Virus record (IMG/VR): IMGVR_UViG_3300035182_002586
Location: 310,001 to 374,000 of that record
Source of the DNA: a virus
Direction: 5' to 3' (one strand)
DNA: 64,000 nucleotides
Shown: in pieces, positions 6,765 through 59,434 of the stretch
Numbering within the stretch: position 1 is the stretch's first letter
How the letters are laid out: every line of letters begins with the position of its first letter
Translations under genes and position numbers: made by a program
The notes under the pieces: generated by a model
Told to the model about the DNA's origin: nothing
Seen by the model: the letters and a program-made list of their open reading frames with translations, nothing else
Databases searched by the model: none

Positions 6765-6770
6765 TACACC
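6765..6770 (-). promoter_or_regulatory. GGTGTA element before the AAA+ ATPase gene
   Basis: GGTGTA on the minus strand, 41 nt before ATG 6723 and just downstream of the terminator hairpin. The gap is longer than the usual 10 nt. Confidence 0.45.
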
Positions 6771-6802
6771 GGAGGACCCTAAGTAGAGACGAGAGACCAA
6801 CG

Positions 6803-6845
6803 AAAAAGGCCCCACCGCTACAGCTCGTAGGGTTGGGGCCTTTTC
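6803..6845. terminator. Hairpin terminator between DUF1257-like and AAA+ genes
   Basis: Inverted repeat AAAGGCCCC ... GGGGCCTTT with an 18-nt interval, flanked by A runs on one side and T runs on the other, so it can work on both strands. It lies directly after the 112-aa DUF1257-like gene. Confidence 0.8.
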
Positions 6846-6873
6846 GGACCGCCTTGCGGCGCCGTTGGGGAGT

Positions 6874-7212
6874 TCAGCCCAACTGCGCTTCGGACTGGCG
6901 GACGACGATGACGATTCGATCGGCGGTCTCGGTCCGATCGTTGACCGACCCGCCACGGAGCTGCACGTCGTTGCGGAGCTTCGCTTCGGCGTAGAACGCC
7001 GAGACGCTCGCGAGGACCTCCGGGTTGTGGCGGTAGTCCGTGTCGCCCGACACGATGCCCGTGCCGAGGTCGATGAACGCTCGGTTCAGCGGCCCGCTGG
7101 TGATGCGGATGCCGTTGCCCTCGGCAGCGAAGGTGCTGCCCATCTGGCGCAGCGCGGCCTCGGCGAGCTTGCGATCCTTGATCTCGGTCTGCGTGGTGAC
7201 TCTGTGGGACAT
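6874..7212 (-). CDS. DUF1257 (Ycf35-like) protein
   Basis: A 112-residue protein whose start MSHRVTTQTEIKDRKLAEAAL matches the DUF1257/Ycf35 opening (MSHF...T.I.D...L..AL). The centre has a glycine at ADYRHN-like positions and predicts a compact alpha/beta domain. Start ATG 7212 follows AGAGGAAG at a good distance; the longer frame upstream is Arg-rich and non-coding in appearance. Function of Ycf35 is not established; it is encoded near Ycf46 in algal plastids and cyanobacteria. Here it sits between a DUF2997-like gene and the Ycf46-like ATPase, forming one cassette. Confidence 0.75.
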   Translation of the reverse strand: MSHRVTTQTEIKDRKLAEAALRQMGSTFAAEGNGIRITSGPLNRAFIDLGTGIVSGDTDYRHNPEVLASVSAFYAEAKLRNDVQLRGGSVNDRTETADRIVIVVRQSEAQLG

Positions 7213-7262
7213 GCTTCCTCTTCGCGTGGCTGGGGTTCTCGTACCCCCGACTCGTGGTCGGG

Positions 7263-7439
7263 CTACTCCGTGGTGATCTCGTTCGCGCCGTCGCACGACG
7301 GACCCGTACGCTCGTCGGAGATCTGCCGGCCGAACTCCGCGGCGTAGGCGACGACCTTCTCGCAGTTCTCGCCTTCACGGTCGAGCACCTCGGCCACCAC
7401 CTGTCCCGTCTTCTTCATGATCGTGTACTGGATGATCAT
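7263..7439 (-). CDS. DUF2997-like small protein
   Basis: A 58-residue protein (MIIQYTIMKKTGQVVAEVL, then GENCEKVVAYAAEFGRQI). The pattern of a short beta hairpin, a G-x-x-C motif and a helix fits DUF2997, a family of about 50-65 residues that commonly neighbours DUF1257. A GGTGTA element begins 29 nt before ATG 7439, likely the first promoter of the cassette. It ends 50 nt before the DUF1257-like gene. Confidence 0.65.
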   Translation of the reverse strand: MIIQYTIMKKTGQVVAEVLDREGENCEKVVAYAAEFGRQISDERTGPSCDGANEITTE

Positions 7440-7462
7440 CGTCGTCGCCTCCGTGGGCTTTG

Positions 7463-7468
7463 TACACC
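7463..7468 (-). promoter_or_regulatory. GGTGTA element before the DUF2997-like gene
   Basis: CCGGTGTAC on the minus strand, 23 nt before ATG 7439. Same core as the start-associated element in the accessory region. Confidence 0.5.
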
Positions 7469-7483
7469 GGCCCGGGTCACCAC

Positions 7484-8134
7484 CTACTCTTTCAATCGAA
7501 TCTTCGCACCTCTAGGGACGACGCGCTCGTCTCCAGGTCCGTGAGCAGGGGCAGGGGCGTTCCAAGGGTCCGCAGGCGGAGGCTTTGCCGTCCACGGGTC
7601 TGCGGGAGGGGCTTTCGCTTGTGCAGGAGCCCCATCCAACATTCGAGGCGCTACCCGAGGAGTGTTGAGAGCGCTGGAGAGGGGGTTGTTGGAGACCCCC
7701 CTTGCCCCCGGAGCCGCTGTCCGAGGTGCCTCTGCCGGAGGTTGGGGCCCGGCTGTGGGGGGCTCCGGCAGAGCCTTCGTCTCCGTAGGGAGGTCTGCCG
7801 GAGGAGCCGCAGCCGCAGCCGCAGCCGCAGCCGCGAGATCCCGAGGGTCGTGCCACTCGGAGGGCACGGAGATCATCGCCTTCCGAGTGACAGGGACCTC
7901 TGCGAAGAACTGCTGTGCGATCGTCGGAAAGCGCGGGTCGCTCTCAGACATCTTCGGAGGATTGAGGAAGAGGCGCTCCTCCCAGTTGAGCACGCGCTGC
8001 TCGAACGGCCCCCGGGCGAACGTGGCCCGGGTGCAATCCGAGTTGAAACAACGCTTACAGCAGCCCTCTACGAAGGCGTCGAGCGGAGCACCGTCGACGT
8101 TGCATTCCGCGTAGAGGTCGAGCTGAGCAGCCAT
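7484..8134 (-). CDS. Cys-rich N-terminal domain protein with Ala/Pro-rich tail
   Basis: 216 residues. The first 35 residues hold a cysteine cluster (ECN, EGCCKRCFNSDC) that probably binds zinc or another metal. After a central segment (VLNWEERLFLNPP, WHDPRDL) comes a run of ten alanines encoded by GCx repeats, then a Pro/Ala-rich tail with two copies of a PPADPW motif. The gene start overlaps nothing but follows the DNA polymerase stop by 25 nt. Function unknown; the tail resembles the linker in the adjacent DNA polymerase, so a replication role is possible. Start ATG near 8134 chosen because the Cys cluster begins there. Confidence 0.65.
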   Translation of the reverse strand: MAAQLDLYAECNVDGAPLDAFVEGCCKRCFNSDCTRATFARGPFEQRVLNWEERLFLNPPKMSESDPRFPTIAQQFFAEVPVTRKAMISVPSEWHDPRDLAAAAAAAAAAPPADLPTETKALPEPPTAGPQPPAEAPRTAAPGARGVSNNPLSSALNTPRVAPRMLDGAPAQAKAPPADPWTAKPPPADPWNAPAPAHGPGDERVVPRGAKIRLKE

Positions 8135-8159
8135 GGCGTAGGGAAGGATAATACCTCGA

Positions 8160-11100
8160 TCACTCGGCGTCGATGGCCACCCCATCACTGAGCGCCAAGT
8201 TCCGAAGCTCCCGAGCGAACGTTTCGGGGTCGACGAGAACCCCGAAGGACGGGTCGATCAAGATGTTCCCGAAGGGGTCGATCAGTCGAAGAGGGGACCC
8301 ACGGTCCACGTCCCGAGCGATACCACAGCAGACGCCCTGCACGATTTTGACCGTCTGGCGAGAGACGTTGTTCAGGCGGATCGTGAAGGGCTTCCTCCCC
8401 GCCGCTGGAACCGGAGCCTTGGCGGGGGCCCGAGGGGCGTCCCAGACGTTCGGCTTGGCCGGGGTCATGACGATGGGGGCCGAAGCCTGAACGGGCGCTG
8501 ACGGGGCGCTGATGGGCGCCGGGGCAGCACTGGAAGGGGTCGGAGCTGCCCCTCCGGCGTTCACGGGAGCCGTCTGAGGCTGCATCCCCGCTACTTCCGG
8601 GTCCGTCTCCCACCCCGGCTTGAGGATGCCTTCGAGCCACGGTGGGACCTTGTGGTACAGCTTGTCCCCGACCTGGACGTGGAAGTCCTTCTCGTTGTCC
8701 TTGAGGTCCGAGAGCTTCCCCTTCTTCCCGCGGGTCAGCATGTCCCAGTTGTACTGACCGCCCCACGACTGACCGAGCAGGGGCTCTACGATCAGGGGGA
8801 CCCTCCACTTCGGAGAGAGCGGAGGCGAAGGCATGCTCGTCGGGGCCTCCATGATCCGCACAAGAACCGGCAAGACGACCGGCACGCGGTCGTTGCGGAT
8901 CTCGAAGACGATTTCGTCGTGCACCGTGAGCAGCATCCTCACGGTGTCGTCACCACCCTGCTTGAGCCACCCACGCTTGTAGAATTCCTTGTGCAGCAGG
9001 ATCATCACGATCTTCATGATGTCTGCGCCGGACCCCTGGATCGCGTAGTTGACCGCGTGGCGCTCGCACGCTGCTTTGATGGCGTTCTCGGGCGAATCGA
9101 TGTCGGGGATGGCGATCCACCGACCGAAGGCCGTGTAGACGCCCTTCTTCTCCTTGACCGTGGCGTGCTGCTTCTTGATCCACTTGGCGAACTCGGGGAC
9201 CGCCTTGTCGAAGAGCTGCTTCTTGCGAGCCGCTTCCTCACGCGTGCACCCGGGGATGGCGCGCATGATCGCTGCGGGTCCGCCGCCGTAGAGCAGTGCG
9301 AAGTTGGCGATCTTGCCGGCCTTGCGTTGTTCCTTGGTCGGCTTGTCCACGCCGAAGAACGCGCGCGCCGTGATGGTGTGGAGGTCCCCTTCCCCTTCGA
9401 GGAACTCCTTGATCCACACTGGCTCGCCCGAGACGTTCGTGGCGATGCGGAGTTCCTCGCCTGCGTAGTCCGACTTCACCATCGTGTAGCCGGGACGGGC
9501 GATGAACCCGTTGCGGAGTGCCGAGGCGCCAGGGATGCCGTGGATCGGCACGGCAGCGAACCCCTGCTCTGCGTCACCCTGCGGTGCGGAGAAGCGTCCC
9601 GTCGCGGCCCCGGTCTCTTTGAACTGGAACCGCATCTCGTGTGAGTCGGGGTCGAAGTTGGTCGTGAGCTTTTCGAGGTAGGTGCCGATCACCTTGTCCT
9701 CTTCACGCCAGTTCACGATCCACTGAAGCACCGGCGGGGCGTTGTCCCCCATCTCTTCGACGAGCGCTTCGAGCGTCTTGGCGTCGGTCTTGTACTGCCC
9801 ACTCTTCTCGTTGATCGGAGGCTTCCCCTTCGGCCAGTCCAGACTCTCGGTGACCGTGATGTTGAGGCCACGCTCCCCGGAGAAGAGGAAGTCACTGAGC
9901 TGCTTGGGTGACCCGGGCTCGAACCCGTGGAACCCCTTGCTCACCGCGAAGTCAATGATGCGCTTGTGCAGCTCGTCCCGCTTCTCGATGTGGACGACGA
10001 GCAGGCGACGGAAGCACTCCACGTCGATCTTGACGCGGTTGCGCTCCATGGTGCGCACGACCTGGATGACCTGCTTCTCGATGCGGTAGGTGCCTGAGAG
10101 GTCCTTCCGCTTCTTGACCTTGGGGATGATGTCGGGGATGTCGCAGAGACGACGCGTGCAGATGGCGTCCGAGCACGCGTACTTCTTGACCCCCTCTTCG
10201 TCCGGCGCGAGGGTGTCGAACTGGATGCGTCGCCCCTGCGTGAACAGATCCTTGAGCTTGATCATCTCGTACGCGTTCCCCTCGGGATCGCGCAGCAGCT
10301 CCATGGACTTGAACTTGAGACCGAGGGCCTTGTCCGCCGAGTAGATGACGAAGGACGCGAGCAGCCCGTCCTCGAAGCTCTCCGGGTGCCACCAGTCGAT
10401 GCCGGTAACCGGGTAGAGCATCTCCTGGTCAAACTTCGCGTTCCAGAAGTCGATGACGACCTGCGGGGGCTTCTCGAACACGCGGAACGAGAGGGGGTCC
10501 GTCTGGTCCGGCCCGGGCGTCGGCTGAGCCGCCCAGCAGAGGCGTGAGATCGCTTCCTCGACCTGCGTAACCGGGAGGTTGCCTGCGGGGCCGTCGTCGA
10601 TCGGGTTGTGGCGGACCGGGATGTAGTAGCCAGTCTTCGCGTCACCGACTGCGATGCAGAAGCCGACGATCTGGTGGACCGTGCGCGGCTTGCCCTTGGC
10701 GTCGTAAAAGATGCGGGTGTCGAGCCCTTGGGTCTCCAGGTCGAGCGCGCACCGCCCGACTCTGATCGCCTCGTCCACGATCTCGTTGACCTGCTCGATG
10801 CTCTTCACGAGGACGAAGTTGTGGTGCTTCATCCACGGCATCGTCGGGTTGGGGACCTGCCTCTCCGGCTGGATACCCGCGTTGAACATGAAGTCGTCCG
10901 GGCTATCCCCGTCGTCTTCCGGCAGCGGCGTGCCTGCATGTGCAGCAGCCACCTCTTCCGGGGGCGGCGGGTGTCCGTTGACCCGTTCGTAGAGCGCGGC
11001 CGCGCGCTGTTCCAGGCTCTCAGCATCCTGGCTCGGACCCGGGAGAGGGTCTCCCGGCAGATCGTCCGTCTCCCCCACCGCAGCCACAGGCGCGGGCGCG

Positions 11101-11213
11101 GGAGGGGCCGCAGCCGGGGTCGGCTCTGAGGGGCCGCTGAGCCCGAGGAAGGCGAGGGTGTCTTCCAGGTCGTCGTCTGCACTCGTGTTGGTTGTCACCG
11201 GCGTATCGCTCAA
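8160..11213 (-). CDS. polA: Family A DNA polymerase (Pol I-like) with 3'-5' exonuclease and extra C-terminal domain
   Basis: 1017 residues, the probable replicative polymerase. An acidic, Pro/Ala-rich leader of about 125 residues precedes the 3'-5' exonuclease domain (Exo I CALDLETQG near 156-163, so D158 and E160 are present). There is no 5'-3' exonuclease domain. Polymerase motifs: A, KSDYAGEELRI near 578; B/O-helix, RKAGKIANFALLYGGG near 629; C, LTVHDEIVFE near 763. After the palm comes a Pro/Ala-rich linker and an extra domain of about 90 residues (from RKPFTIRLNNVS) that I do not recognise. The phenylalanine in NFALLYG predicts normal discrimination against dideoxynucleotides. Confidence 0.95.
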   Translation of the reverse strand: MSDTPVTTNTSADDDLEDTLAFLGLSGPSEPTPAAAPPAPAPVAAVGETDDLPGDPLPGPSQDAESLEQRAAALYERVNGHPPPPEEVAAAHAGTPLPEDDGDSPDDFMFNAGIQPERQVPNPTMPWMKHHNFVLVKSIEQVNEIVDEAIRVGRCALDLETQGLDTRIFYDAKGKPRTVHQIVGFCIAVGDAKTGYYIPVRHNPIDDGPAGNLPVTQVEEAISRLCWAAQPTPGPDQTDPLSFRVFEKPPQVVIDFWNAKFDQEMLYPVTGIDWWHPESFEDGLLASFVIYSADKALGLKFKSMELLRDPEGNAYEMIKLKDLFTQGRRIQFDTLAPDEEGVKKYACSDAICTRRLCDIPDIIPKVKKRKDLSGTYRIEKQVIQVVRTMERNRVKIDVECFRRLLVVHIEKRDELHKRIIDFAVSKGFHGFEPGSPKQLSDFLFSGERGLNITVTESLDWPKGKPPINEKSGQYKTDAKTLEALVEEMGDNAPPVLQWIVNWREEDKVIGTYLEKLTTNFDPDSHEMRFQFKETGAATGRFSAPQGDAEQGFAAVPIHGIPGASALRNGFIARPGYTMVKSDYAGEELRIATNVSGEPVWIKEFLEGEGDLHTITARAFFGVDKPTKEQRKAGKIANFALLYGGGPAAIMRAIPGCTREEAARKKQLFDKAVPEFAKWIKKQHATVKEKKGVYTAFGRWIAIPDIDSPENAIKAACERHAVNYAIQGSGADIMKIVMILLHKEFYKRGWLKQGGDDTVRMLLTVHDEIVFEIRNDRVPVVLPVLVRIMEAPTSMPSPPLSPKWRVPLIVEPLLGQSWGGQYNWDMLTRGKKGKLSDLKDNEKDFHVQVGDKLYHKVPPWLEGILKPGWETDPEVAGMQPQTAPVNAGGAAPTPSSAAPAPISAPSAPVQASAPIVMTPAKPNVWDAPRAPAKAPVPAAGRKPFTIRLNNVSRQTVKIVQGVCCGIARDVDRGSPLRLIDPFGNILIDPSFGVLVDPETFARELRNLALSDGVAIDAE

Positions 11214-11647
11214 GGCTTCTTCTCCTGCGTAACGACGACCACGTACACCCCTTCACGCCACAGGTTGATCGCCTCGGAGACGAGACGACGAAGTTCGTCG
11301 TCTACGAGACCTCCGGGCGTGTAGCACCAGGGCATTTTCTTCGCCGTGGGGTGACACTCGTTGGGGGCATACAGAGAGCACCGCGTACGCGTGTCACACT
11401 CACGGGCAACCACAGGGAGCTTTCTGAGAGCCCCTTGCGGTTGTACCCCGAGCGCATCAACGAGGGGTTTCGTCCACCCGACGAGAGCCTGGTCCATCAC
11501 CGTCTTCGTCACGACGGTGAAGAGGGCCGCGACCTCGTGATCTTGGAGGGCTCGCCAAGAAGACTCCCACTCCCCTGCTGTGTTGTAGATGAGGTACAGC
11601 TCCAGCTTCCCAAGCTCGCGCGGGCGGAGCGTCAACCGTCGGGGCAC
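11210..11647 (-). CDS. Hypothetical protein in the replication block, GTG start
   Basis: 145 residues from GTG 11647, preceded by AGAGGGAG and overlapping the end of the primase zinc-protein gene by 16 nt; it in turn overlaps the polymerase start by 4 nt. The middle holds cysteines CDTRTRCSLYAPNEC and a later WCYTPGG, which could bind metal. The rest is mixed alpha/beta. No TOPRIM or polymerase motif is visible. The tight overlaps put it in the replication operon; its role is unknown. Confidence 0.75.
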   Translation of the reverse strand: MPRRLTLRPRELGKLELYLIYNTAGEWESSWRALQDHEVAALFTVVTKTVMDQALVGWTKPLVDALGVQPQGALRKLPVVARECDTRTRCSLYAPNECHPTAKKMPWCYTPGGLVDDELRRLVSEAINLWREGVYVVVVTQEKKP

Positions 11648-12285
11648 GAACGCTCCCTCTCCCCGATCTTGTCGAGGATTTTCCGCAGGATGGGGATGGC
11701 ATCCGTTGGCGTACGTGCTCCGTTGTTCAGCTCGTATGCCAGACGATCCAGAGCAGAACCGAGGGTGAGGTAGGGCCGCAGCTCGAAGCAGCGCTTGGCG
11801 CTGAGCAGGCGCCGCTCGCACACCTCGAAGAGCTTCCGCACTTCGTCGCTAGACTCGTCGTGAATCGCCTCCTCTTCGTAGCTCCCTCCGAAGGCCGGCG
11901 GTTCTGGCGGGGTGATGCCGTACGACTTCTCGATGTCTCGCAAGAGCCCCGTGAACCGGCCCTCGAAGTTGGTGAACTTCTTCCACAGCCCGATGCAGTC
12001 CCATCCGGGCTCCTGGCAGACGAAGCACCACATGTGCGAGGAGCCCTTCACGGACTCCGGGTAGAAGCGGCACGAGGGTTTCTTGTCCGCCCCGTGGAAC
12101 GGACAAGAGATCTGCTCCTCACGCGTGCCGTTGAAGCGAAGCTCGATCCCGTTGCGGGCGAGAACGTCGTACGCCGTCACCCGGTTGTGGATCAGCTCGA
12201 TTCGCTTCTTGACCCACTGCTTCGCCGCATCGGATTGCTCTACCTCGCGACGAGCCTCTCCTGCGAAGTCTCGTGCTCGTGCCAT
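11632..12285 (-). CDS. CHC2-type primase zinc-binding protein without catalytic domain
   Basis: 217 residues. The N-terminal region has the DnaG zinc-finger pattern: AYDVLARNGIELRFNG, then SCPFHGADKKPSCRFY and MWCFVCQEPGWDCIGL, with C-x2-H ... C-x2-C ligands. A DnaG primase would continue with a TOPRIM catalytic core of some 200 more residues; here the protein ends with a helical segment. It may be a template-recognition subunit for a separate catalytic protein, or a repurposed zinc domain. Start ATG 12285 follows a GGTGTA element by 13 nt; the six extra codons upstream overlap that element and are unlikely to be used. Confidence 0.8.
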   Translation of the reverse strand: MARARDFAGEARREVEQSDAAKQWVKKRIELIHNRVTAYDVLARNGIELRFNGTREEQISCPFHGADKKPSCRFYPESVKGSSHMWCFVCQEPGWDCIGLWKKFTNFEGRFTGLLRDIEKSYGITPPEPPAFGGSYEEEAIHDESSDEVRKLFEVCERRLLSAKRCFELRPYLTLGSALDRLAYELNNGARTPTDAIPILRKILDKIGERERSCPDG

Positions 12286-12298
12286 CGGTTGCACCCCG

Positions 12299-12304
12299 TA
12301 CACC
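12299..12304 (-). promoter_or_regulatory. GGTGTA element before the primase zinc-protein gene
   Basis: GGTGTAC on the minus strand, 13 nt before ATG 12285; no good ribosome site lies between. Confidence 0.55.
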
Positions 12305-12307
12305 AGA

Positions 12308-15157: not shown

Positions 15158-15173
15158 GAGGTGGGCCTCGTCG

Positions 15174-15179
15174 TACACC
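15174..15179 (-). promoter_or_regulatory. GGTGTA element before the 157-aa gene
   Basis: TGGTGTACG on the minus strand, 16 nt before ATG 15157. Confidence 0.5.
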
Positions 15180-15188
15180 AGGTGGGGG

Positions 15189-17191: not shown

Positions 17192-17204
17192 GGGAGCGCG
17201 CCCG

Positions 17205-17210
17205 TACACC
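17205..17210 (-). promoter_or_regulatory. GGTGTA element before the SNF2 helicase gene
   Basis: CCGGTGTACGGGCGCGCTCC on the minus strand, 13 nt before ATG 17191. It shares the long form GGTGTACnGGCGCGC with sites at 19597 and 23969. Confidence 0.6.
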
Positions 17211-17222
17211 GGGCCGTACAGC

Positions 17223-17636: not shown

Positions 17637-17733
17637 CTGATCCTCCATCCCGGGCGGGGCCCGTACCCCTCGGAAGAGCGAAAAAGAGATCCTCCGGGAT
17701 GGATCAGACCCACCCACGCACGGTAGGAGGGAC

Positions 17734-18126: not shown

Positions 18127-18128
18127 CC

Positions 18129-18640: not shown

Positions 18641-18651
18641 GGGGTCGGATC

Positions 18652-18657
18652 TACACC
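18652..18657 (-). promoter_or_regulatory. GGTGTA element before the 89-aa gene
   Basis: CCGGTGTAGATCCG on the minus strand, 11 nt before ATG 18640. The next 7 bases are identical at the 19035 site. Confidence 0.6.
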
Positions 18658-18664
18658 GGGCACG

Positions 18665-19024: not shown

Positions 19025-19034
19025 CCTACGGATC

Positions 19035-19040
19035 TACACC
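19035..19040 (-). promoter_or_regulatory. GGTGTA element before the 119-aa gene
   Basis: GGTGTAGATCCG on the minus strand, 10 nt before GTG 19024. Confidence 0.6.
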
Positions 19041-19042
19041 GC

Positions 19043-19573: not shown

Positions 19574-19596
19574 GCTGTGACCTCCGAGCGCGCCGG

Positions 19597-19613
19597 TACA
19601 CCACGTCGGTGTA
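19597..19613. promoter_or_regulatory. Divergent palindrome TACACC-N5-GGTGTA
   Basis: Two GGTGTA copies back to back. The plus copy (19608-19613) ends 10 nt before ATG 19624; the minus copy ends 23 nt before ATG 19573. Could be two promoter cores, an operator, or both. Confidence 0.65.
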
Positions 19614-22083: not shown

Positions 22084-22089
22084 TACACC
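22084..22089 (-). promoter_or_regulatory. GGTGTA element before the 226-aa gene
   Basis: GAGGTGTATTAGAGGGC on the minus strand, 9 nt before ATG 22074, abutting the terminator hairpin. Confidence 0.6.
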
Positions 22090-23255: not shown

Positions 23256-23948
23256 TTACACCGGGAAAAGCGCGTCGACGAACGGTTCGTGATCCCCGTG
23301 GAGACAGCGCACGTACAGAGAGTTCGAGAGAGCCAGGGCTCGTGTGCTCTGGATGGTTCGTACCACCTGGTCCCCCTTCCACCCCGTCACCAGGTGGAGA
23401 GCCGTACCGAGCACCAGGCCCGATCGATTGTGCCCAAACTCACAGGTGACCAGCACGGTCTTGCCCGCCTCGACCAACGCGGCTGCACGTCGTGCCGCCG
23501 ACACAACGAAGCCGAGGTCCCCCGAACGAAACCCCTCGTCCGTATCCAAGAAGGGTGCGCGGATGACTTCGACGCCCGGGAACTCCTCGTTGCGAGGCTG
23601 GTACTGCTCGGCACAGAGCACGACCGCGTGAAAACCCGCCTCCCACAACGCGGGCCCAATCGGAGGACGGCCTCCCTGCCAGAGGCGTGGATGGATCTCT
23701 GTTGCGTCGATGGACGTTCGGGTCTCGACCAAGGTGCTCGTGCAGAGCCAGTGGTCCTTCAAGTCGGGCTCCAGGATATACAGCGCCCCACCCTGCGTGT
23801 GAGCCCGGGCTTGCTCCCAGCCCATCGCGGTCACCCGTGCCCGCTCCCCCGCAATGAGCACCTCGTCCCCTGCCGCCAAGTCCCCACGAAGAGCCGGTTC
23901 TCGGCCTCCATCCTGACGGATTCGAGCCACAGAAAGCGCACGGAGCAT
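23256..23948 (-). CDS. Dual-specificity protein phosphatase-like protein
   Basis: 230 residues. The signature VTCEFGHNRSGLV gives C169 and R175 of the Cx5R phosphatase loop, and DATEIHPRLWQGGRPP matches the entry strand of dual-specificity phosphatases. APFLDTDE near 131-138 can supply the general acid aspartate. The residue before the catalytic cysteine is Thr rather than the usual His. An N-terminal beta extension of about 80 residues precedes the domain. Predicted to dephosphorylate a phosphoprotein or a nucleotide or RNA 5' end in the host. Divergent from the gene at 23987 across a palindromic control site. Confidence 0.8.
   Translation of the reverse strand: MLRALSVARIRQDGGREPALRGDLAAGDEVLIAGERARVTAMGWEQARAHTQGGALYILEPDLKDHWLCTSTLVETRTSIDATEIHPRLWQGGRPPIGPALWEAGFHAVVLCAEQYQPRNEEFPGVEVIRAPFLDTDEGFRSGDLGFVVSAARRAAALVEAGKTVLVTCEFGHNRSGLVLGTALHLVTGWKGDQVVRTIQSTRALALSNSLYVRCLHGDHEPFVDALFPV
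23257..23262 (-). promoter_or_regulatory. GGTGTA element before the 79-aa gene
   Basis: CCGGTGTAACCCCC on the minus strand, 10 nt before ATG 23246. It lies within the last codons of the phosphatase gene. Confidence 0.55.
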
Positions 23949-23958: not shown

Positions 23959-23974
23959 TACACCAGCCGGTGTA
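23959..23974. promoter_or_regulatory. Divergent palindrome TACACC-N4-GGTGTA
   Basis: The minus copy ends 10 nt before ATG 23948; the plus copy ends 12 nt before ATG 23987 and has the long form GGTGTACCGGCGCGC. Confidence 0.65.
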
Positions 23975-25077: not shown

Positions 25078-25134
25078 CTCCCCCTACTACTTCGTGGCGG
25101 GCCGCTGATCCATCGAAGGCTTCGCCTTGGCCGG

Positions 25135-28776: not shown

Positions 28777-28794
28777 TACACCGTCTGTGGTGTA
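28777..28794. promoter_or_regulatory. Divergent palindrome GTACACC-N6-GGTGTAC
   Basis: A perfect 7-bp inverted repeat with a 6-bp centre, TACACC at 28777-28782 and GGTGTA at 28789-28794. The minus copy ends 10 nt before GTG 28766, the plus copy 11 nt before ATG 28806. Confidence 0.7.
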
Positions 28795-29815: not shown

Positions 29816-29821
29816 TACACC
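29816..29821 (-). promoter_or_regulatory. GGTGTA element before the small Cys-rich gene
   Basis: CCGGTGTACTTC on the minus strand, 10 nt before ATG 29805. Confidence 0.55.
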
Positions 29822-30987: not shown

Positions 30988-31005
30988 AACACCGGGTCTG
31001 GTGTA
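30988..31005. promoter_or_regulatory. Divergent palindrome AACACC-N6-GGTGTA
   Basis: The minus copy (GGTGTT) ends 11 nt before ATG 30976, the plus copy (GGTGTA) 10 nt before ATG 31016. Confidence 0.65.
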
Positions 31006-31939: not shown

Positions 31940-32887
31940 TCAGGGGAGGGTTCGGGGGCGCCCCACCTGACGAGGGTGTTGGATGCCGTGTTCGACGAGA
32001 TGCCGTCGCACGGTCGTCTCGGTCTGTCCTAGCTCCCGCGCGATGCGCTTGATGGGGACTCCCTTCGCGGACATCTCCCGGAGCACCTTCGGCGTGAGCA
32101 CCTGCCTGACCTGGTAGTGCGGCCCCTGAAAGCCGAAGGTGAGCTTGTGGGTCATGCACTCTGGCATGTGGGGCTTCACGAGGGCGATGAACCGGAGAGC
32201 CTGCTCTTCCCCCTCCAGGTGGAAGACTCCAGTGTTCCCCTTGCAGACCTCCCATCGGGGACGAAAGCCAAACTGGTCGAAGACACCCATCGCGATGCCC
32301 TGACTCACGGGGTCCATGCCGAAGGTGATGCGAGGCCACCAGCCTACCGAACCGTCGTCCATGAACCACACGGCTAGGACGAGACTGTCTACGACGTGGA
32401 GGACCTCCCGGGTAAGGTGCTTCGGGCCATCCCCGTCATAGAAGCGCTCATGCCACTCGACCAGGCTCGCATGGGAAACTGTGTGGAAGCGCCACCCGGG
32501 GAATTCACGCCCTTCCCTGCGCCACACAACAGGGGCTAGAGGGGCTTGCACCCACTGACCCCACTCCCTGGCTTTCCACTCGATGTACGCGTGCTGCGCG
32601 TCAGAGTGGTTCTCCTGATAACGAGCTGCATGAGGCGTTCGCGAGAGACGGCCATCACCGAGCATCGATCCCACCAGGATGGACTGGAGGCGCCCCTCAA
32701 TAGGCGTGACGGTGTTCCTCTCTGCACGCTCCAGCGTCCGAATGCCATAATGCTTCCGCCAAGAACGCACCCTTTTCAGGGTCGTGGGTTCTCCGAGGCG
32801 AGTGACGATCTCTTCGTCGGTCAGCTTCTCTTCGATGTACAGGCGAGCGAGTTCTTCGGGGGGTACGGGGCACTCGATACGACGCAT
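31940..32887 (-). CDS. Free-standing LAGLIDADG homing endonuclease
   Basis: 315 residues. Two LAGLIDADG helices: ILVGSMLGDG near 71-80 and LAVWFMDDGS near 171-180, a monomeric layout. Helix-turn-helix-like segments flank the core (LTDEEIVTRLGEPTTLKRV at the N-terminus, KRIARELGQTETTVRRHL near the C-terminus), which bind DNA next to the cut site. Start ATG 32887, 10 nt after a GGTGTA element, chosen over a frame 6 codons longer. It sits at the border of the accessory and virion regions. Confidence 0.88.
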   Translation of the reverse strand: MRRIECPVPPEELARLYIEEKLTDEEIVTRLGEPTTLKRVRSWRKHYGIRTLERAERNTVTPIEGRLQSILVGSMLGDGRLSRTPHAARYQENHSDAQHAYIEWKAREWGQWVQAPLAPVVWRREGREFPGWRFHTVSHASLVEWHERFYDGDGPKHLTREVLHVVDSLVLAVWFMDDGSVGWWPRITFGMDPVSQGIAMGVFDQFGFRPRWEVCKGNTGVFHLEGEEQALRFIALVKPHMPECMTHKLTFGFQGPHYQVRQVLTPKVLREMSAKGVPIKRIARELGQTETTVRRHLVEHGIQHPRQVGRPRTLP

Positions 32888-32897: not shown

Positions 32898-32903
32898 TAC
32901 ACC
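32898..32903 (-). promoter_or_regulatory. GGTGTA element before the LAGLIDADG gene
   Basis: GTGGTGTACACTATCGGT on the minus strand, 10 nt before ATG 32887; TACACT could be a -10 hexamer placing the mRNA start at the ATG. Confidence 0.6.
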
Positions 32904-33026: not shown

Positions 33027-33959
33027 TCAGAAGCGGCTGATCACGAGACGGGTCAGGCCACGGGGGTTGAACGCCCCAATGCCGATGTTTTCGAAGCAAG
33101 AGAATCCGATCGTCCGGTTCTTCGGGTCGTCGGCGCTGAGCACGGTCAGCTCCGTACGAACCGGGAAGCGGCCGAAGTTCTCCGGCTCTGCGCACACGTA
33201 CACGAACCCGACCGGCACGAGGCGGCTCGTGATGATCTGCGCGCCCCAGAGGACGGCCTGGAGGCCCGTCTTGAGGAGGGTTGCCTGCGACTCGATGTCG
33301 AGGATGTCGCGGCCGAACTTGCGGATGTCCGCGTAGTCGACTGCGTTCATGTAGATGCGTGCCACGCGGAGGTCGTGGCGCTCGATCTCGGCGAACGCGT
33401 CCGCGAGGACCGACGGCGAGATGGGGGCGACCACGGCCACGTCCGGGTTCGTCTGACCCGGGAGGGTGTCGAAGCCCGACACCGCGATGCTGTCGAGGAC
33501 TGCGAAGACGCGCTCGTCTTCCGCCGCCTGGATCTGCGCCTTCGCGAGGTCCTGGCTGCGCTCGATCAGGTCGAAGCGACGCTCCTTGATCTGCGTGAGC
33601 GGGATCTCCGGGTTCGAGGCGATCTCGAACAGCGGGAAGATCACGCGGCGCGGCTTCTGGACGGCGAGGATGTTCTCGCCTTCCTCGCCGACGACGAAGG
33701 CCGTGACGTCCGGGTCCTTGTCATAGATCGGGAGTGCCCCGTCCGGAAGCTGCTCCACGAGGAAGGTCTTGCGACCGACCGCCGTGTAGTCGCGACGGAG
33801 GCGGAGCGGCTGGATCATCGATGCTGCGAGCTTCGCGCGGCCAGCGGCCGTCTTGATGTACTCGCTGATGATCGCCTGCTTGGTCTCGTTGGAGACCACC
33901 ATCTGCTGCTGGGCGACCGGGGAGAAGCCGCCCATCATCTGCTGCTGCGTCTGGAACAT
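33027..33959 (-). CDS. Major capsid protein (HK97 fold)
   Basis: 310 residues. The N-terminus is Gln/Met rich and, after a helix with YIKTAAGRAKLAASMI, leads to the E-loop region and the P-domain (IERSQDLAKAQIQAAEDERVF), then A-domain strands ending FGRFPVRTELTVLSADDPKNR and FSCFENIGIGAFNPRGL. This arrangement is the pattern of short HK97-type capsid proteins of large myoviruses. It is the last gene of the virion operon, followed by a terminator, as expected for the most abundant product. Confidence 0.85.
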   Translation of the reverse strand: MFQTQQQMMGGFSPVAQQQMVVSNETKQAIISEYIKTAAGRAKLAASMIQPLRLRRDYTAVGRKTFLVEQLPDGALPIYDKDPDVTAFVVGEEGENILAVQKPRRVIFPLFEIASNPEIPLTQIKERRFDLIERSQDLAKAQIQAAEDERVFAVLDSIAVSGFDTLPGQTNPDVAVVAPISPSVLADAFAEIERHDLRVARIYMNAVDYADIRKFGRDILDIESQATLLKTGLQAVLWGAQIITSRLVPVGFVYVCAEPENFGRFPVRTELTVLSADDPKNRTIGFSCFENIGIGAFNPRGLTRLVISRF

Positions 33960-36282: not shown

Positions 36283-36325
36283 TTTCAGGTAACCTTTCCT
36301 CGCACTGAGAGTCTGATAAAAGGAT

Positions 36326-43717: not shown

Positions 43718-43876
43718 ACCGTGTGCGGGCGATAAGAGAAGATTTCACAGACGTTCCGGGTGGTTCCGTGAGGACACGAAAAACGACACGAGCTTTGCAC
43801 GGTGATCCACGAGACCCCGACGATTTTGTGCAACACGAGAGGGCCGTACGGGCCTTGTACCTAGAGGAGGCCCACC

Positions 43877-50756: not shown

Positions 50757-50786
50757 GGGACTTCTCCGATCTTCATCTGATGTAGG

Positions 50787-51965: not shown

Positions 51966-52035
51966 GGGGGCCTCTGGCTTGCGCGGTGGAGGACCCGGCC
52001 AAGGGAAGCCTTACAGCCTCACCCCCAGGTCCCGA

Positions 52036-52449: not shown

Positions 52450-52460
52450 CGAACGGTCTC

Positions 52461-54238: not shown

Positions 54239-54273
54239 TGTTCCTACATCTGAGCCTGGCATAAGAGCAATCT

Positions 54274-55002
54274 CTAGCGGCAGTCGTACTTGTAGCCCGA
54301 CTGAGAAGCCGTCTTCGCCGTCCTCTGGTTCAGGAGGTAGACGAACTCCTCGTGCTTGTCGGCGATGCCCTGGAGCATGTTGTCCGTGCCCGACGAGAGC
54401 ATGTTGAGGGCCGTCAGGTCCGCCCTCACAGCCTCGACGAGCGCGATGGCCATCTTCACGACCGCCAGACTGCACGCAGGGAAGTTCGCAGGCCCTTCGA
54501 GACCTTCCGGCTGCGCGTAGGCCACGAGAACCGCCTGGTGGGCCATCTGGATGACCGGACCCACGTACTCGACGCCCCCCGTGCTGACCGTGCGCTCGGC
54601 CCACGAGTCGATCAGCCCGTTCGTGTCGTTGTAGAGGCGATCGAAGAGAAGGTGGTCCCCGTAGTAGTCCGGGCCCCTCGTCTGCCAGTGGTGCGTCTGG
54701 TGGATGACGGTCTCCGCCCGGAGCATCGACAGCAGCACGCCCATGAGCCCGAAGGGACCCGCGTACTGCGCCTTCAAGAGCCCGAAGACCTTCTCCGGAG
54801 ACGCTCCCGCAAGCCACTGTGACGGCGGCAGCATGAGCGGCGTGTCTGCGCCGACCGCCGCCGTCTTCGGACGTGCGGATGCAATCGGAGCCCCATCGAC
54901 GGTCTGACCGGGGAGGTAGGGCGGACCGTGCGCGAAGTGGTTGTACTGCGTAGGGTCGTGCCAGATCGCGTAGGCTGCCGCGCCGTTGGGATCGTGAGCC
55001 AT
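54274..55002 (-). CDS. Dps/ferritin-like protein in the tail cluster
   Basis: 242 residues from ATG 55002 (stop-start overlap TGATG). The core has TVIHQTHHWQTRG, YYGDHLLFDRLYND, LIDSWAERT and near the end GTDNMLQGIADKHEEFVYLL, the fingerprint of Dps. The ferroxidase ligands keep E. coli Dps spacing exactly: H105, H117, D121, D132, E136. Ordinary Dps is about 160-190 residues; here an N-terminal extension of about 75 residues (WHDPTQYNHFAHG) is added. Dps binds iron, scavenges peroxide and can bind DNA. Its place among virion genes suggests a virion component. Confidence 0.82.
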   Translation of the reverse strand: MAHDPNGAAAYAIWHDPTQYNHFAHGPPYLPGQTVDGAPIASARPKTAAVGADTPLMLPPSQWLAGASPEKVFGLLKAQYAGPFGLMGVLLSMLRAETVIHQTHHWQTRGPDYYGDHLLFDRLYNDTNGLIDSWAERTVSTGGVEYVGPVIQMAHQAVLVAYAQPEGLEGPANFPACSLAVVKMAIALVEAVRADLTALNMLSSGTDNMLQGIADKHEEFVYLLNQRTAKTASQSGYKYDCR

Positions 55003-55334
55003 CACTTCACCGCCTTGTCCTTCAGCAGCGTACGGAGGTGCTCGATGTCGCCCGGGAAGATCCAGCCTTCCCACGCCTTCGTGAGCTTGGCCTCCGCCGC
55101 CTTGAACGCGGGACCAACCTTCGGATCGAGCGCGATGGGAGAGTCGGACTCCAGGGCACTCAGCTCGATGTGGGCGTCCTGGAGGAGCTTCCCCGCTTCC
55201 TTGAGGGCGTGCTCGATCTTCGCGAGCTGCGCGAGGTACTTGGGCACGTTGGCCTGGAGCTGCTCCGGGTGCGGGACGACCCTGGCAAGGACCTCTCGCG
55301 ACTGCTGAATGAGACTGGCCTGACGAGCGTGCAT
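55002..55334 (-). CDS. Helical virion-region protein, 110 aa
   Basis: Starts MHARQASLIQQSREVLARVV after GGAGAG. Helical throughout, with heptad-like stretches (LAQLAKIEHALKEAGKLLQDA), and ends KDKAVK just before the Dps-like start, with which it shares TGATG. Likely translated together with it. Function unknown. Confidence 0.65.
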   Translation of the reverse strand: MHARQASLIQQSREVLARVVPHPEQLQANVPKYLAQLAKIEHALKEAGKLLQDAHIELSALESDSPIALDPKVGPAFKAAEAKLTKAWEGWIFPGDIEHLRTLLKDKAVK

Positions 55335-55373
55335 GGGGGCTCTCCTACAGGGCGTCTTTGACAAGGAACTTTA

Positions 55374-56000
55374 TCAAGACGGCCCCTTCTCGCGGATCTT
55401 CCGGAGAGCAGCGGAAGCTGCCCCAACCCCACCAGCCTGCCCCTCGTCCTTCTGGACGTTCACGTAGTCCTTCACGTCGGTGGGCTTGATGGTGGACGGG
55501 ATGAAGAGGGGGGCGTCTCCCGAGGGGGCATCCGAGGCCGGCTTTTCGGCACGCGCAGCCGAGGAGGCTCCTCCACTGCCGGCGGAAACCCCGCGGATGA
55601 GCGCCGCCATCTCGTTGAAGCGTTCCTGCTGCACGATCAGCACGGCCGCAAATGCCTGGTCACGGTGCGACATCTCTTCGCGAAGCAGACGGTTCTGCTC
55701 CTCCAGGGCCGAAACGAGAGCCGTGGGAGGTGCTGCCGCCGTGGGGACGGGGGGTGGGGGTGCAGCCACCGTAGGAACGGGAAGCGGAGCGGGGTGAGGC
55801 ATTCCGTGAGGTGCCGCCGAATGAATCGACCCCCCGTGGAACTGGAACAAGAGACGCTGGCTGATGAGACGCCACAGGTCCTTGGAACGGTGAGCCTTCT
55901 CTGCGGAGATGGACACCACCACACCATGTGGCACGTCAACGAAGATATCCTCGATGAGGATCGTCCCTGTCTTCGTGTTGATCACCTTCACATCGTTCAT
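55374..56000 (-). CDS. Virion-region protein, 208 aa
   Basis: Start MNDVKVINTKTGTILIEDIF at ATG 56000, sharing TGATG with the gp10-like gene. N-terminal beta domain, then Pro/Ala/His-rich linker, a coiled helix (EEQNRLLREEMSHRDQAF) and an acidic-Gly-rich end. Possibly a tail or neck protein. Family unknown. Confidence 0.6.
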   Translation of the reverse strand: MNDVKVINTKTGTILIEDIFVDVPHGVVVSISAEKAHRSKDLWRLISQRLLFQFHGGSIHSAAPHGMPHPAPLPVPTVAAPPPPVPTAAAPPTALVSALEEQNRLLREEMSHRDQAFAAVLIVQQERFNEMAALIRGVSAGSGGASSAARAEKPASDAPSGDAPLFIPSTIKPTDVKDYVNVQKDEGQAGGVGAASAALRKIREKGPS

Positions 56001-56512
56001 CACTTGGACCTGAATGCGGCTGCGACCTGGCGTTGAAGGTCTCGTTTGATGGCCTTCTTGATGTGCTCGCGAGCTTCCTTGCGAGCCTTCTCGATGATGG
56101 TCGTCGGCTCGTGACCCGGGTGGATCCACTTACCGTTCTTCATCGACCGCGGCGTAGCCGAGCGGAAAATCAGCTCTCCCTCTTCCGTGATGATCGGGAT
56201 GGGAGCCCGAGCCTTTACGAGCCACCGCATCTGCCCACCCTCGCGACCCATGAGAAGGGGTCGGAACGCCGGGTGGTTTGCCGTGATCTGAATGCTCGAT
56301 GCTTTCGCGACGACCTTCAACGCCCGACTGAGCGCGGCCCGCGCGCGCGTCGAGAAGGTCGTCTGCATCATGATGTTGTTCTTGACCCTCTTCATCACGT
56401 CAGCCCGGAGCTTGCGGAGAACCGCTTCCGGGTCGATCTTCCTCAGGGCTGCCGCTGAGGTGACGAGGGGCTTGAGGTTGATCTGCCCAACGGTGACGAA
56501 CGGGTGCGCCAC
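56000..56512 (-). CDS. Neck protein-like (HK97 gp10-like), 170 aa
   Basis: Helical basic N-terminus (EAVLRKLRADVMKRVKNNI), middle HPAFRPLLMGREGGQMRWLV, and a C-terminal helix with KARKEAREHIKKAIKRDLQ. The pattern of a basic alpha/beta fold with a terminal helix is that of HK97 gp10-type neck proteins. Moderate confidence. Lies between the 451-aa structural protein and the 208-aa protein. Confidence 0.6.
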   Translation of the reverse strand: MAHPFVTVGQINLKPLVTSAAALRKIDPEAVLRKLRADVMKRVKNNIMMQTTFSTRARAALSRALKVVAKASSIQITANHPAFRPLLMGREGGQMRWLVKARAPIPIITEEGELIFRSATPRSMKNGKWIHPGHEPTTIIEKARKEAREHIKKAIKRDLQRQVAAAFRSK

Positions 56513-56515
56513 GGG

Positions 56516-57871
56516 CTAGTACTCCAGGTTCTCCCAAGCGATCGTGCGGCCGCGAAGCTGCTGCTCACTCGGGATGTTGGGCTTGTTGGTGACACCAGAG
56601 GACGCCTCGTTCTCTGGGCCGTCCGGTGCGAACTGCACCGCGGGCGCGTGTAGAGGAGATCCCACCGGCACCTTGTATCGGATGTCCTTCTCGTCGAGGT
56701 GCCCGACCGTGAAGTGCTGCTGGATGATGTTCCCGCGGTTGTTCGGGAAGCGCACCCCGCCCACCGAGTAGCGCTCGCCGTTCACCTTCACGATGAAGTC
56801 GCGATGCGCGAGGATGGGGGTGGGCCCGGTCCAGGTCTCGTAGGAGTGCTCGACCGTTCGACCCAGTTCCGTCTGCGAGATCTTCCGTTCGGCGTCGTCG
56901 GGGGCAACGATGAGGTCGTACGGTCCCTCATACCCCCCAAGAATGCCCGTGCCGTAGCAGTTCAGGCAGTCGTTCTGCGGCTGCTTGTGCTGCTCGCTAG
57001 GGTCACAGGGGCACGGTACCCCAACGTTCTTGCGAAGGAACGCCTTCACACGCTCGCCGCCCTGCTCCAAGATCCACCGGTTGCGACGAACCGCTTCGCG
57101 CCAGATGTAGTCGAGCTTCTCAACTTCGTAGGACGAGGCAGCGGCCGCACTCTCCAGAGGGGTCTCCACGAGGTCCTGAGGTTGAACCGTGGCGAGGTCG
57201 AGGTTGATCGGGATGCCGACCGTGGCCACCCGCCAGAACACCCTCTGCGCCAGGTCCGTCTTGAGGAGGGTCCGGGTGTAGCGGTAGTAGCAGACCACCC
57301 GGCTGTTCGGACCCGGAATCACCGCCGGGGTGAGGCTCTGCGTCCCGACCTCCGGGAACATGCGAGGGTCAATTTCGACCTCCCCCGCCTTCCCGAAGAC
57401 ACGGAGCACCCGCGCCTCCACACCGTCCACGAAGACACGAACGTCGAGCGGGTAATCCGCAGGGATCTGCTGCGACCCCTCCTTGACGATCGGCGAGTGG
57501 AGGGTCCGGAAGACGTACCTCGGCGCATCCTGCCCGGAAGCCGTCGCCAGACCCTTGAGGATGAACTGGTCGGAGACGTCCTCCTCCAAGAGCACGTTGT
57601 CCGTCTGGTCACGCCAGAACGTCGCCCCCACAGGTAGGTCGGTCACCCGCTCGAACGGGCCGAACTCCGAGTCGAACGACCGGTACACGTTGACCCCGAG
57701 AATCCGGAACCGCCCGTTCACGGGGAGTTGGGCAGGGTCATCCCACTGGAGATCGAACACACCCGCGTGATACCCGCTCGACGAGAACAGGTTCAGCGGG
57801 GCCGCCGGCCAAGGCGCGCGTTCGATCTCCAGGGGCCCGGGGGTCCGGTCTCGTTGCGTCGAGTAGGGCAT
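56516..57871 (-). CDS. Virion structural protein with Cys motif, 451 aa
   Basis: Beta-rich and Pro-rich throughout (WDDPAQLPVNGRFRILGVNVYRSF, ERVTDLPVGATFWRDQTDNV). Near 290 it has GVPCPCDPSEQHKQPQNDCLNCYGTG, a Cys cluster that may bind metal or form disulfides. The end is polar. Fits a neck or baseplate wedge protein; family not named. Upstream space holds no other gene. Confidence 0.65.
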   Translation of the reverse strand: MPYSTQRDRTPGPLEIERAPWPAAPLNLFSSSGYHAGVFDLQWDDPAQLPVNGRFRILGVNVYRSFDSEFGPFERVTDLPVGATFWRDQTDNVLLEEDVSDQFILKGLATASGQDAPRYVFRTLHSPIVKEGSQQIPADYPLDVRVFVDGVEARVLRVFGKAGEVEIDPRMFPEVGTQSLTPAVIPGPNSRVVCYYRYTRTLLKTDLAQRVFWRVATVGIPINLDLATVQPQDLVETPLESAAAASSYEVEKLDYIWREAVRRNRWILEQGGERVKAFLRKNVGVPCPCDPSEQHKQPQNDCLNCYGTGILGGYEGPYDLIVAPDDAERKISQTELGRTVEHSYETWTGPTPILAHRDFIVKVNGERYSVGGVRFPNNRGNIIQQHFTVGHLDEKDIRYKVPVGSPLHAPAVQFAPDGPENEASSGVTNKPNIPSEQQLRGRTIAWENLEY

Positions 57872-57907
57872 CGGGCCTCCTCAAACCGGCCCGGACAAGT
57901 GGAAACG

Positions 57908-58240
57908 TCAGGAAGCGGCGGCCGCCTGCGCAGCCTGACCGTTCGGGGCATCTCCCTGGGGGACGAGAACCCGGATCTTGCCCGTACCCGCGTCGATCTC
58001 GACCGGCGTGGAGGGCGCGACGCCACGGTCGCTGAGGACCTTCTCGAAGAGCCGCTGACGCTCCACGTCGATCTGACGCGCCGCGACCATGATCTTGACC
58101 TTCTCGGCCTCCACATCGAGGAGCTGTGCTCCGAGGCGCATCCGCGCCGACTCCAGATCGCCGAAGCGCTGGAGGATGGCCGGGTCGATGGGGTCTTCGA
58201 CGGACAGGCGCTTGGTGTTCGGATCCACTTCGGTGCTCAT
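57908..58240 (-). CDS. Virion-region protein, 110 aa
   Basis: Start MSTEVDPNTKRLSVEDPIDP at ATG 58240, with GGAGATCGAA before it. Helical centre (LESARMRLGAQLLDVEAEKVKIMVAAR) and Ala-rich end. The frame continues upstream but lacks coding quality. Function unknown. Divergent from the plus gene at 58323. Confidence 0.65.
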   Translation of the reverse strand: MSTEVDPNTKRLSVEDPIDPAILQRFGDLESARMRLGAQLLDVEAEKVKIMVAARQIDVERQRLFEKVLSDRGVAPSTPVEIDAGTGKIRVLVPQGDAPNGQAAQAAAAS

Positions 58241-58294
58241 TTCGATCTCCATCTGGATGGATCGGTGCGGGGGCCGATCGGTAGTCCGCAGTAG

Positions 58295-58300
58295 GGTGTT
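58295..58300 (+). promoter_or_regulatory. GGTGTT variant element
   Basis: GGGTGTTTC, 22 nt before ATG 58323. Weaker match to the control motif. Confidence 0.35.
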
Positions 58301-58322
58301 TCTACAAGGAGAACCTCGACCG

Positions 58323-58616
58323 ATGGACCTTATGACCATGCCCAAAGGGGCACCTTCTCTGCACGCACTGAACAACGCAACCTCCGGAAATCTATTGGAT
58401 TTCGCGGGGTATTGCCGACAGCACGGCTTCACGGCGTCGGTCGTCGTTCAGACGGAAGGTCTGCATGACGACGAGGCGGTCCTGCACCTGCACGCAGCCA
58501 ACGCCTTCGGGCGGACCACGCACTTCGAGTCCCATCAGCTCACGGGGCGAGCGGCGAAGGCCGCCCGGGACCTCAAGAACCTGTCTCCGGATCTGACCTT
58601 CCGCTTCCGCCTGTAG
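58323..58616 (+). CDS. Hypothetical protein, 97 aa
   Basis: ATG 58323 (AAGGAG 14 nt upstream; ATG 58332 is also possible). Sequence MDLMTMPKGAPSLHALNNAT, then ASVVVQTEGLHDDEAVLHLHAA, ends DLTFRFRL. Small alpha/beta look. Unknown. Overlaps a convergent zinc-finger gene by 44 nt. Confidence 0.6.
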   Translation: MDLMTMPKGAPSLHALNNATSGNLLDFAGYCRQHGFTASVVVQTEGLHDDEAVLHLHAANAFGRTTHFESHQLTGRAAKAARDLKNLSPDLTFRFRL

Positions 58617-58974
58617 ACGGAGGAGGGACCTCAGCCTTCGTCTCGTACCTCTTCGCCAAAACGATCAGGACCCGCCGCCACACACGTAACGGGATCCCGT
58701 GCTGACGGATCAGCTCCCTGCGGGCTCGCTCCGACTGCGAGTTCGGGCAGGTGTGGAGGTGATGGTCGGAACGACGGCGACACAAGCGGCAGACCGGCTC
58801 TTTTGGCGGCCCGACAGCTTCCTGTGCCTCTCTCGTCAACTGGTGGCGTGCCTTGCGGATCGCCTTCGGATCCGAACGATTGACCCATGGGACGCAGGCC
58901 CGCCGATGTCGCCGCATCTGCGGGTACGTCCGGCAGGTGAACCCGCAGATGCAGGGGTGGATCCTGGTGGCCAT
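58573..58974 (-). CDS. Zinc-finger protein, 133 aa
   Basis: From ATG 58974 (or GTG 58983). Residues 7-24 hold CICGFTCRTYPQMRRHRRAC, a C2H2-like finger of the type found at the start of phage endonucleases, followed by basic helix and a second C-x2-C ... HLHTC site (CRLCRRRSDHHLHTC). No nuclease domain is present. It could be a regulator or a remnant of an endonuclease. Confidence 0.65.
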   Translation of the reverse strand: MATRIHPCICGFTCRTYPQMRRHRRACVPWVNRSDPKAIRKARHQLTREAQEAVGPPKEPVCRLCRRRSDHHLHTCPNSQSERARRELIRQHGIPLRVWRRVLIVLAKRYETKAEVPPPSTGGSGRSDPETGS

Positions 58975-59089
58975 GGCTCGCACTTCCCAAGGGAGCTACC
59001 CCTCGTCGCAGCATGGTGATTCCCGGGTGCTTGTGCACCCGGGAACCGTCCCACCAAGCCGCAAAGTGCCCTCCATTCAAGGCGTTAGG

Positions 59090-59095
59090 TACACC
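59090..59095 (-). promoter_or_regulatory. GGTGTA element downstream of the 59105 gene
   Basis: TGGTGTACC on the minus strand, 9 nt before a TTG at 59080 and about 115 nt before the zinc-finger gene start. Confidence 0.4.
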
Positions 59096-59104
59096 AGCTT
59101 CACG

Positions 59105-59407
59105 CTACGCGTTCAGGAACGGCGACTCGATGCGGACAAACGGGAAGCACCGAAGCCCCCGGATCGCGTACACGATCGCGTCACGCATCGCAGGCGGAGC
59201 CTTCCGCGCCTCTTCCGGAGTCATCCCCTCCGCGAACCGGATGACCAGCAAGTGCTCGCCTGCCTCGGACATCCGCATCTCCAAGGACGACACGTGCTCC
59301 ACCTTGTGTCCGTCCACGAGCAGGTCGCCCGAGACTTGAAAGGGGAACGCTCCTGGTGCCACGTGTAGGTCCAGGTTCACAGAGATACGATGGGCGAGGG
59401 AAGACAT
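59105..59407 (-). CDS. Hypothetical protein, 100 aa, paralogue of the 17223 gene
   Basis: ATG 59407 follows TAGGAG. Segments VSSLEMRMSEA, IRFAEGMTPEEA and RCFPFVRIESP match the protein at 17223-17636, so the two are related. Small beta-alpha fold with unknown role. Divergent from the gene at 59436. Confidence 0.7.
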   Translation of the reverse strand: MSSLAHRISVNLDLHVAPGAFPFQVSGDLLVDGHKVEHVSSLEMRMSEAGEHLLVIRFAEGMTPEEARKAPPAMRDAIVYAIRGLRCFPFVRIESPFLNA

Positions 59408-59419
59408 GAACTCCTAGAC

Positions 59420-59434
59420 GGTGTAGTAGACACC
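59420..59434. promoter_or_regulatory. Control palindrome GGTGT-N5-ACACC
   Basis: The plus GGTGTA (59420-59425) ends 10 nt before ATG 59436; the minus-strand GGTGTC of the other arm is 21 nt before ATG 59407. Here the two arms face each other rather than apart. Confidence 0.55.

Follow-up and report, generated by a model that had tools for sequence, protein, structure and literature searches.

Leaderless genes of Actinobacteria are preceded by a -10 element, TANNNT, that lies at a fixed distance from the start, has no -35 partner and keeps a conserved T at -7, while the late promoters of T4-type phages depend on gp55, consist of a -10 box only (TATAAATA) and are clamp-coupled. Promoters of extracytoplasmic function (ECF) sigma factors pair a -35 with a -10 box. 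Leaderless transcripts are described for mycobacteria (PMC4633059). In cluster K mycobacteriophages the start-associated sequence (SAS), GGGATAGGAGCCC with up to two mismatches and a Shine-Dalgarno-like AGGAG inside, is a short, asymmetric repeated sequence immediately before many start codons, mostly outside the structural genes; about half of the copies carry 17-bp inverted repeats, and the repeat was reported without a functional test (PMC3203893). Jumbo phage AR9 has leaders of 26–491 nt, and the promoters of AR9/phiKZ-like jumbo phages are read by phage multisubunit RNA polymerases (PMC5312081). For huge phages known only from metagenomes almost nothing is known of gene regulation, and a search of one literature collection returned no article that connects GGTGTA with a phage promoter. 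Here we analyse the hexamer GGTGTA in a 64,000-nt stretch of DNA (the window), positions 310001–374000 of the 528,957-bp huge-phage record IMGVR_UViG_3300035182_002586. The whole record is denoted G000, and coordinates without this prefix are window positions.

Sequence statistics support, short of proof, the view that a class of phage promoters, mostly giving leaderless mRNA, is very likely built around GGTGTA. The hexamer would act on DNA as an extended -10-type element without a conserved -35 box, read by the host's RNA polymerase together with a specificity factor that the phage determines, and RNA synthesis would begin roughly 10 nt further on. For most genes +1 would be the initial nucleotide of the start codon, producing a leaderless mRNA, while a minority would have a leader beginning with a Shine-Dalgarno sequence. 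The class would serve replication, nucleotide-metabolism and accessory genes and not virion genes.

The window contains 34 copies of GGTGTA against 10.0 expected, a number reached in 0 of 100 shuffles, and the whole record contains 332. The record was read in stretches and about 700 genes were called from codon usage alone, the motif not being consulted. Within the 60 nt upstream of 596 genes GGTGTA is the most enriched hexamer (135 copies versus 10.3 expected), with a peak 9–12 nt from the start. At this spacing 128 copies precede called gene starts, whereas 47 permuted hexamers average 2.1 and never exceed 7, and motif-blind start codons give 98 sites against 0.8 expected. About one fifth of the genes carry the element at their start. 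Gene-based counts cover six genomes (G000 and its relatives G018, G002, G019, G007 and G011), and the mode of the spacing is 10 nt in most of them. The element is invariant. Counts pooled over seven genomes at the 9–12 nt spacing give 284 copies of GGTGTA versus 2.9 expected, while its 18 single-base variants stay near expectation with no more than 9 copies each. The preliminary description had placed GGTGTA, GGTGTT and GGTGTC before accessory and replication genes, and this stands for GGTGTA only: GGTGTT (5 versus 2.3 expected in the pool, 1 in the own genome) and GGTGTC (9 versus 2.8, and 0) are near chance and thus noise, not variants of the element. The base 5' of GGTGTA is C in about 75% of the own-genome copies. 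No -35 box is visible, apart from a weak A/T-rich patch 24–27 nt upstream in relative G018. Genes with a proximal element start with ATG in 91–94% of cases, versus 70–86% for genes without a nearby element. As the preliminary description had proposed, the element also corrects gene starts, since 21 of the 128 element-linked starts differ from those of the codon-usage caller (for example 23948, 19624 and 32887).

The position at which RNA would begin can be read from the relation between the element and the Shine-Dalgarno sequence. The latter is found in 7% of genes with the element at 9–12 nt, in agreement with the early remark that many element genes lack it, in 27–31% at 14–19 nt, in 67–79% at 20–26 nt and in 56–63% at 27–40 nt, the baseline in genes without the element being 29%. 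In leadered genes the Shine-Dalgarno sequence begins 9–12 nt after GGTGTA 18 times (8.5 expected) and 4–8 nt after it 3 times (11 expected). Its scarcity beside a proximal element, together with its frequency and its placement 9–12 nt after a distal one, suggests that RNA begins about 9–12 nt after GGTGTA. The RNA start would thus coincide with the start codon in most genes and lie at or before the Shine-Dalgarno sequence in the rest. If an ATG at a distance of 10 nt supplies +1, the final A of the hexamer falls at -11 and the T before it at -12, the canonical melting position. An initiator base was looked for in the leadered genes, with no clear signal. The tight spacing to the start codon and the rarity of Shine-Dalgarno sequences beside the element could also be expected of a translation-initiation signal, either a site where a phage translation factor binds or an unusual ribosome-binding sequence, its GGUG pairing with the CACC in the 16S tail. 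However, GGTGAT, which at this position would pair perfectly with the 16S tail, is found once against 2.9 expected; complementarity to the tail does not set the enrichment, and a Shine-Dalgarno variant is ruled out. Moreover, distal copies of GGTGTA coexist with a normal Shine-Dalgarno sequence downstream and other genes of the same genomes use AGGAGG.

Nine divergent gene pairs of the own genome carry an element for each direction within the 34–48 bp between their start codons, as at 23948/23987. Divergent element pairs are also present in G018 (six) and G019 (four), one G018 pair (230037/230054) being an overlap artefact of the frame rule. This arrangement leaves no room for a -35 box outside the opposing gene. 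Back-to-back copies in so short an interval argue once more against a translation signal, which we consider very improbable. The inverted pairs (TACACC-N-GGTGTA) do resemble the half sites of a regulator and, with the strict invariance of the hexamer and the conservation of a protein with two helix-turn-helix stretches described below, could indicate the operator of a phage repressor or activator acting over an otherwise unrecognised promoter. The spacing of the inverted pairs is nevertheless variable and they are located at divergent gene pairs, most copies are single and face a gene, and no other conserved -10 element lies beside GGTGTA, so that an operator appears very improbable.

The promoter interpretation is accompanied by a marked division between gene classes. 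GGTGTA is found at 0 of 104 virion-block starts and at 128 of 528 starts elsewhere (p = 1e-11). Four copies do lie among the head and tail genes at 33–58 kb, where none had been noticed before a gene; all are on the + strand, antisense to these genes, and none is at a start. Relatives were gathered through a 215-residue region-4-like protein, giving 33 contigs, many of them hundreds of kb long; a megablast search against a phage collection gave no match. Raw counts of GGTGTA-N8..12-ATG, taken in 25 related records, exceed the reversed control at 145 versus 8 in G018, 84 versus 0 in G019, 89 versus 4 in G002 and 65 versus 13 in G007, and the excess is clear in nearly all longer records, a few short fragments showing none. 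Gene-based counts are 94 (G018), 68 (G002), 61 (G019), 35 (G007) and 24 (G011), with means of 1.3–2.7 for permuted hexamers. The same hexamer is used in relatives of 44–65% GC. Orthologues of genes with an element within 60 nt are much likelier to carry it themselves (odds ratio 6.9, p = 2e-17). A 440-residue gene (G000 54555–55877), which we take to be a putative ClpX homologue, has the element at 9–13 nt in six of six genomes, and the DNA polymerase gene has it 26–45 nt upstream in five of six. In the distant 485-kb relative LR745208.1 the motif takes the form GGTGTAA at about 8 nt and is weaker; this record also has other motifs at fixed distances (CTAAAAAG and CCGATAGG).

The NADFDGD motif of the beta-prime subunit of multisubunit RNA polymerases was not found in six frames of any genome examined, and a search for single-subunit polymerase families gave no match in the phages, nor in the controls, and so carries no weight. 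With no RNA polymerase gene found, the host polymerase is the likely enzyme. Its specificity at GGTGTA could come from a host alternative sigma factor in place of a phage factor, which would suit the lack of a phage polymerase motif and of a detected sigma region 2. However, phages whose GC content ranges from 44 to 65%, and whose hosts presumably differ, share the identical hexamer, while the second promoter class described below changes between them, and the exclusion of virion genes implies temporal control; we consider a host factor possible but unlikely. The only sigma-like protein in every relative examined is the 215-residue protein (G000 71524–72171), which displays a region 4 helix-turn-helix (PF04545, 2.4e-11; PDB SigF region 4, 2.2e-5) and whose gene adjoins the clamp loader gene. 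Across 20 phages its identity is 60–67% and two helix-turn-helix stretches are nearly invariant, whereas most core proteins are 35–60% identical. It is a tentative candidate for the specificity factor of GGTGTA, its conservation paralleling that of the element, and it could equally serve the third promoter class. A scan of genome contigs with this protein, aimed at the host, found no relative. It is conceivable, if doubtful, that a tandem helix-turn-helix region-4-like protein without region 2 reprogrammes the host polymerase to an invariant, -35-independent hexamer promoter of leaderless genes that can also act in both directions from an ultracompact site; such a mode of initiation is not known to have been described. 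Between the clamp loader gene and the gene of the 215-residue protein, G000:72193–74172 (-) combines a weak NusG-like N-terminus (E 0.0099, below the cut-off) with a 5'-3' exonuclease. A second small protein of 117 residues (G000:479437–479790, +), mostly sigma region 4 (PF04545, 5.7e-18) and without region 2, is encoded among promoters of the second class.

Several observations weigh against GGTGTA as a leaderless promoter. Sigma region 2 (PF04542), the part that binds the -10 element and the core enzyme, gave nothing over the cut-off in the own genome or seven relatives, where a diverged form may have escaped detection. GGTGTA is stricter than usual sigma-70-type -10 elements. The preliminary description had taken its TA as the opening of a -10 hexamer with transcription beginning at the start codon; the spacing, the Shine-Dalgarno relation, the divergent pairs and the second promoter class agree with such a start, but not with the canonical TAnnnT form, as the T at -7 is not conserved, position 9 of the alignment lacking a strong T. 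The 9–12 nt spacing accounts for only about 39% of the 332 copies, the others being partly leadered and the rest unexplained or due to chance. When proximal, GGTGTA covers the Shine-Dalgarno site, so that the absence of this sequence at 9–12 nt is partly forced. Within the final 10 nt before the start, moreover, no depletion of Shine-Dalgarno-like tetramers is seen relative to other genes, so that the argument rests on the distal group.

Two further motif classes accompany GGTGTA. A bipartite class, GATGGATCG-N15-TGTAG, precedes about 50 genes of the own phage, and its -35 box begins 34–35 nt before the ATG. Two members lie in the window: one at 17698–17726 (+) before ATG 17734, in the form GATGGATC-N-GTAG and with an ATGGAT box whose first base lies 35 nt upstream of that ATG, and one at 25087–25114 (-) before ATG 25077. 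Relatives have other boxes in the same geometry, namely GGTTGATCC-N-CTGTAGG in G002, GGAAAAAG-N-CGTCTAGG in G019 and TTGAACC-N-TTGTAC in G018. A single second-class motif for the whole clade is ruled out, GATGGATC being specific to the own phage. Where no ATG stands at the fixed position in the relatives, the A of ACC-ATG or of an A(A)GGAG leader is often found there instead; the distance of the box and the fixed A thus provide an independent placing of +1 on the start codon. The third class, TYTTATC, is present upstream of genes 13 times against 0.7 expected, and eight of the 13 copies are in virion blocks (p = 3e-4). In the window it occurs as TTTTATC at 36315–36321 (-), upstream of virion-block gene 36282, and as TCTTATC at 43731–43737 (-), upstream of virion-block gene 43717. 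TYTTATC, a candidate late promoter, also stands upstream of virion operons at G000 211434, 226070, 240338 and 250946. We propose a temporal order in which the bipartite class is probably early and TYTTATC probably late; the GGTGTA gene set, lacking virion genes, fits a middle class between them.

The preliminary description had counted at least 12 window copies ending 9–11 nt before a start codon. We find 13 that end 9–12 nt upstream of an in-frame start, 12 of them at called genes. On the - strand the element lies at 18652–18657 (11 nt before ATG 18640), 22084–22089 (9 nt before ATG 22074), 23257–23262 (10 nt before ATG 23246), 29816–29821 (10 nt before ATG 29805) and 32898–32903 (10 nt before ATG 32887, the start of a LAGLIDADG endonuclease gene at 31940–32887, -). 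Copies on the + strand are at 31000–31005 (10 nt before ATG 31016) and 59420–59425 (10 nt before ATG 59436). A bidirectional pair is formed by 23959–23964 (-), 10 nt before ATG 23948, as its left half and 23969–23974 (+), 12 nt before ATG 23987, as its right half, with 38 bp between both start codons. Of the two GTG starts proposed earlier, 19024 is supported by the gene calls (element at 19035–19040, -, 10 nt away), whereas 28766 (28777–28782, -, 10 nt away) opens a 48-residue frame that the gene caller does not support; the latter copy is back-to-back with 28789–28794 (+), 11 nt before ATG 28806. Likewise, 19608–19613 (+), 10 nt before ATG 19624, is back-to-back with the leadered copy 19597–19602 (-), 23 nt before ATG 19573 with a GGAGG Shine-Dalgarno sequence between. 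Two further copies are 13 nt from their starts: 12299–12304 (-) before ATG 12285 and 17205–17210 (-) before ATG 17191 of a SNF2-like helicase gene, whose orthologues in three of five relatives have the element at 11–12 nt. Additional leadered forms are 7463–7468 (-), 23 nt before ATG 7439 with GGAGG between, and 11244–11249 (-), which precedes the DNA polymerase A gene with AGGAG between and is matched at 26–36 nt in the orthologues of four of five relatives. The copy at 6765–6770 (-) lies 41 nt before ATG 6723 of an AAA ATPase gene, two orthologues of which have it at 10 nt. The copies at 3344–3349, 19597–19602, 23969–23974 and 17205–17210 run on as a longer repeat, GGTGTACCGGCGCGC or a close variant. 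The protein encoded at 33027–33959 (-) is 93% identical across five relatives, while the adjoining head genes are 55–65% identical.

Together with the corrected gene starts, the three motif classes offer a readable promoter map for the whole clade. If the leaderless interpretation holds, the hosts must translate leaderless mRNA extensively, and GGTGTA would provide a short, apparently stringent promoter with a candidate factor. The bipartite class recalls ECF-sigma-type promoters, whose -35/-10 pairs are resembled by GGAAAAAG-N-CGTCTA (G019) and TGATCC-N-GTA (G002); unlike ECF systems, no ECF sigma gene was detected in these phages and the -35 box varies from phage to phage. With AR9/phiKZ-like jumbo phages the present ones share distinct promoter classes and short motifs near +1, but no multisubunit polymerase motif was found in them. 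The T4-type late promoters are similar in forming a -10-only phage class, and here too a phage sigma-like gene adjoins the clamp loader gene; in contrast, GGTGTA differs in sequence, precedes non-virion genes and predicts leaderless transcripts, and no region 2 was found. Leaderless genes of Actinobacteria are alike in the -10-type element at a fixed distance, the start codon as +1, the preference for ATG and the absence of a Shine-Dalgarno sequence, whereas GGTGTA has an invariant GGTG before the TA and does not conserve the T at -7. Finally, the cluster K SAS and GGTGTA both sit before starts of mostly non-structural genes. As the preliminary description had recognised, the two differ in sequence (GGGATAGGAGCCC versus GGTGTA): GGTGTA does not conform to the SAS consensus, is invariant, contains no Shine-Dalgarno sequence and displays a relation between distance and Shine-Dalgarno frequency that points to transcription.

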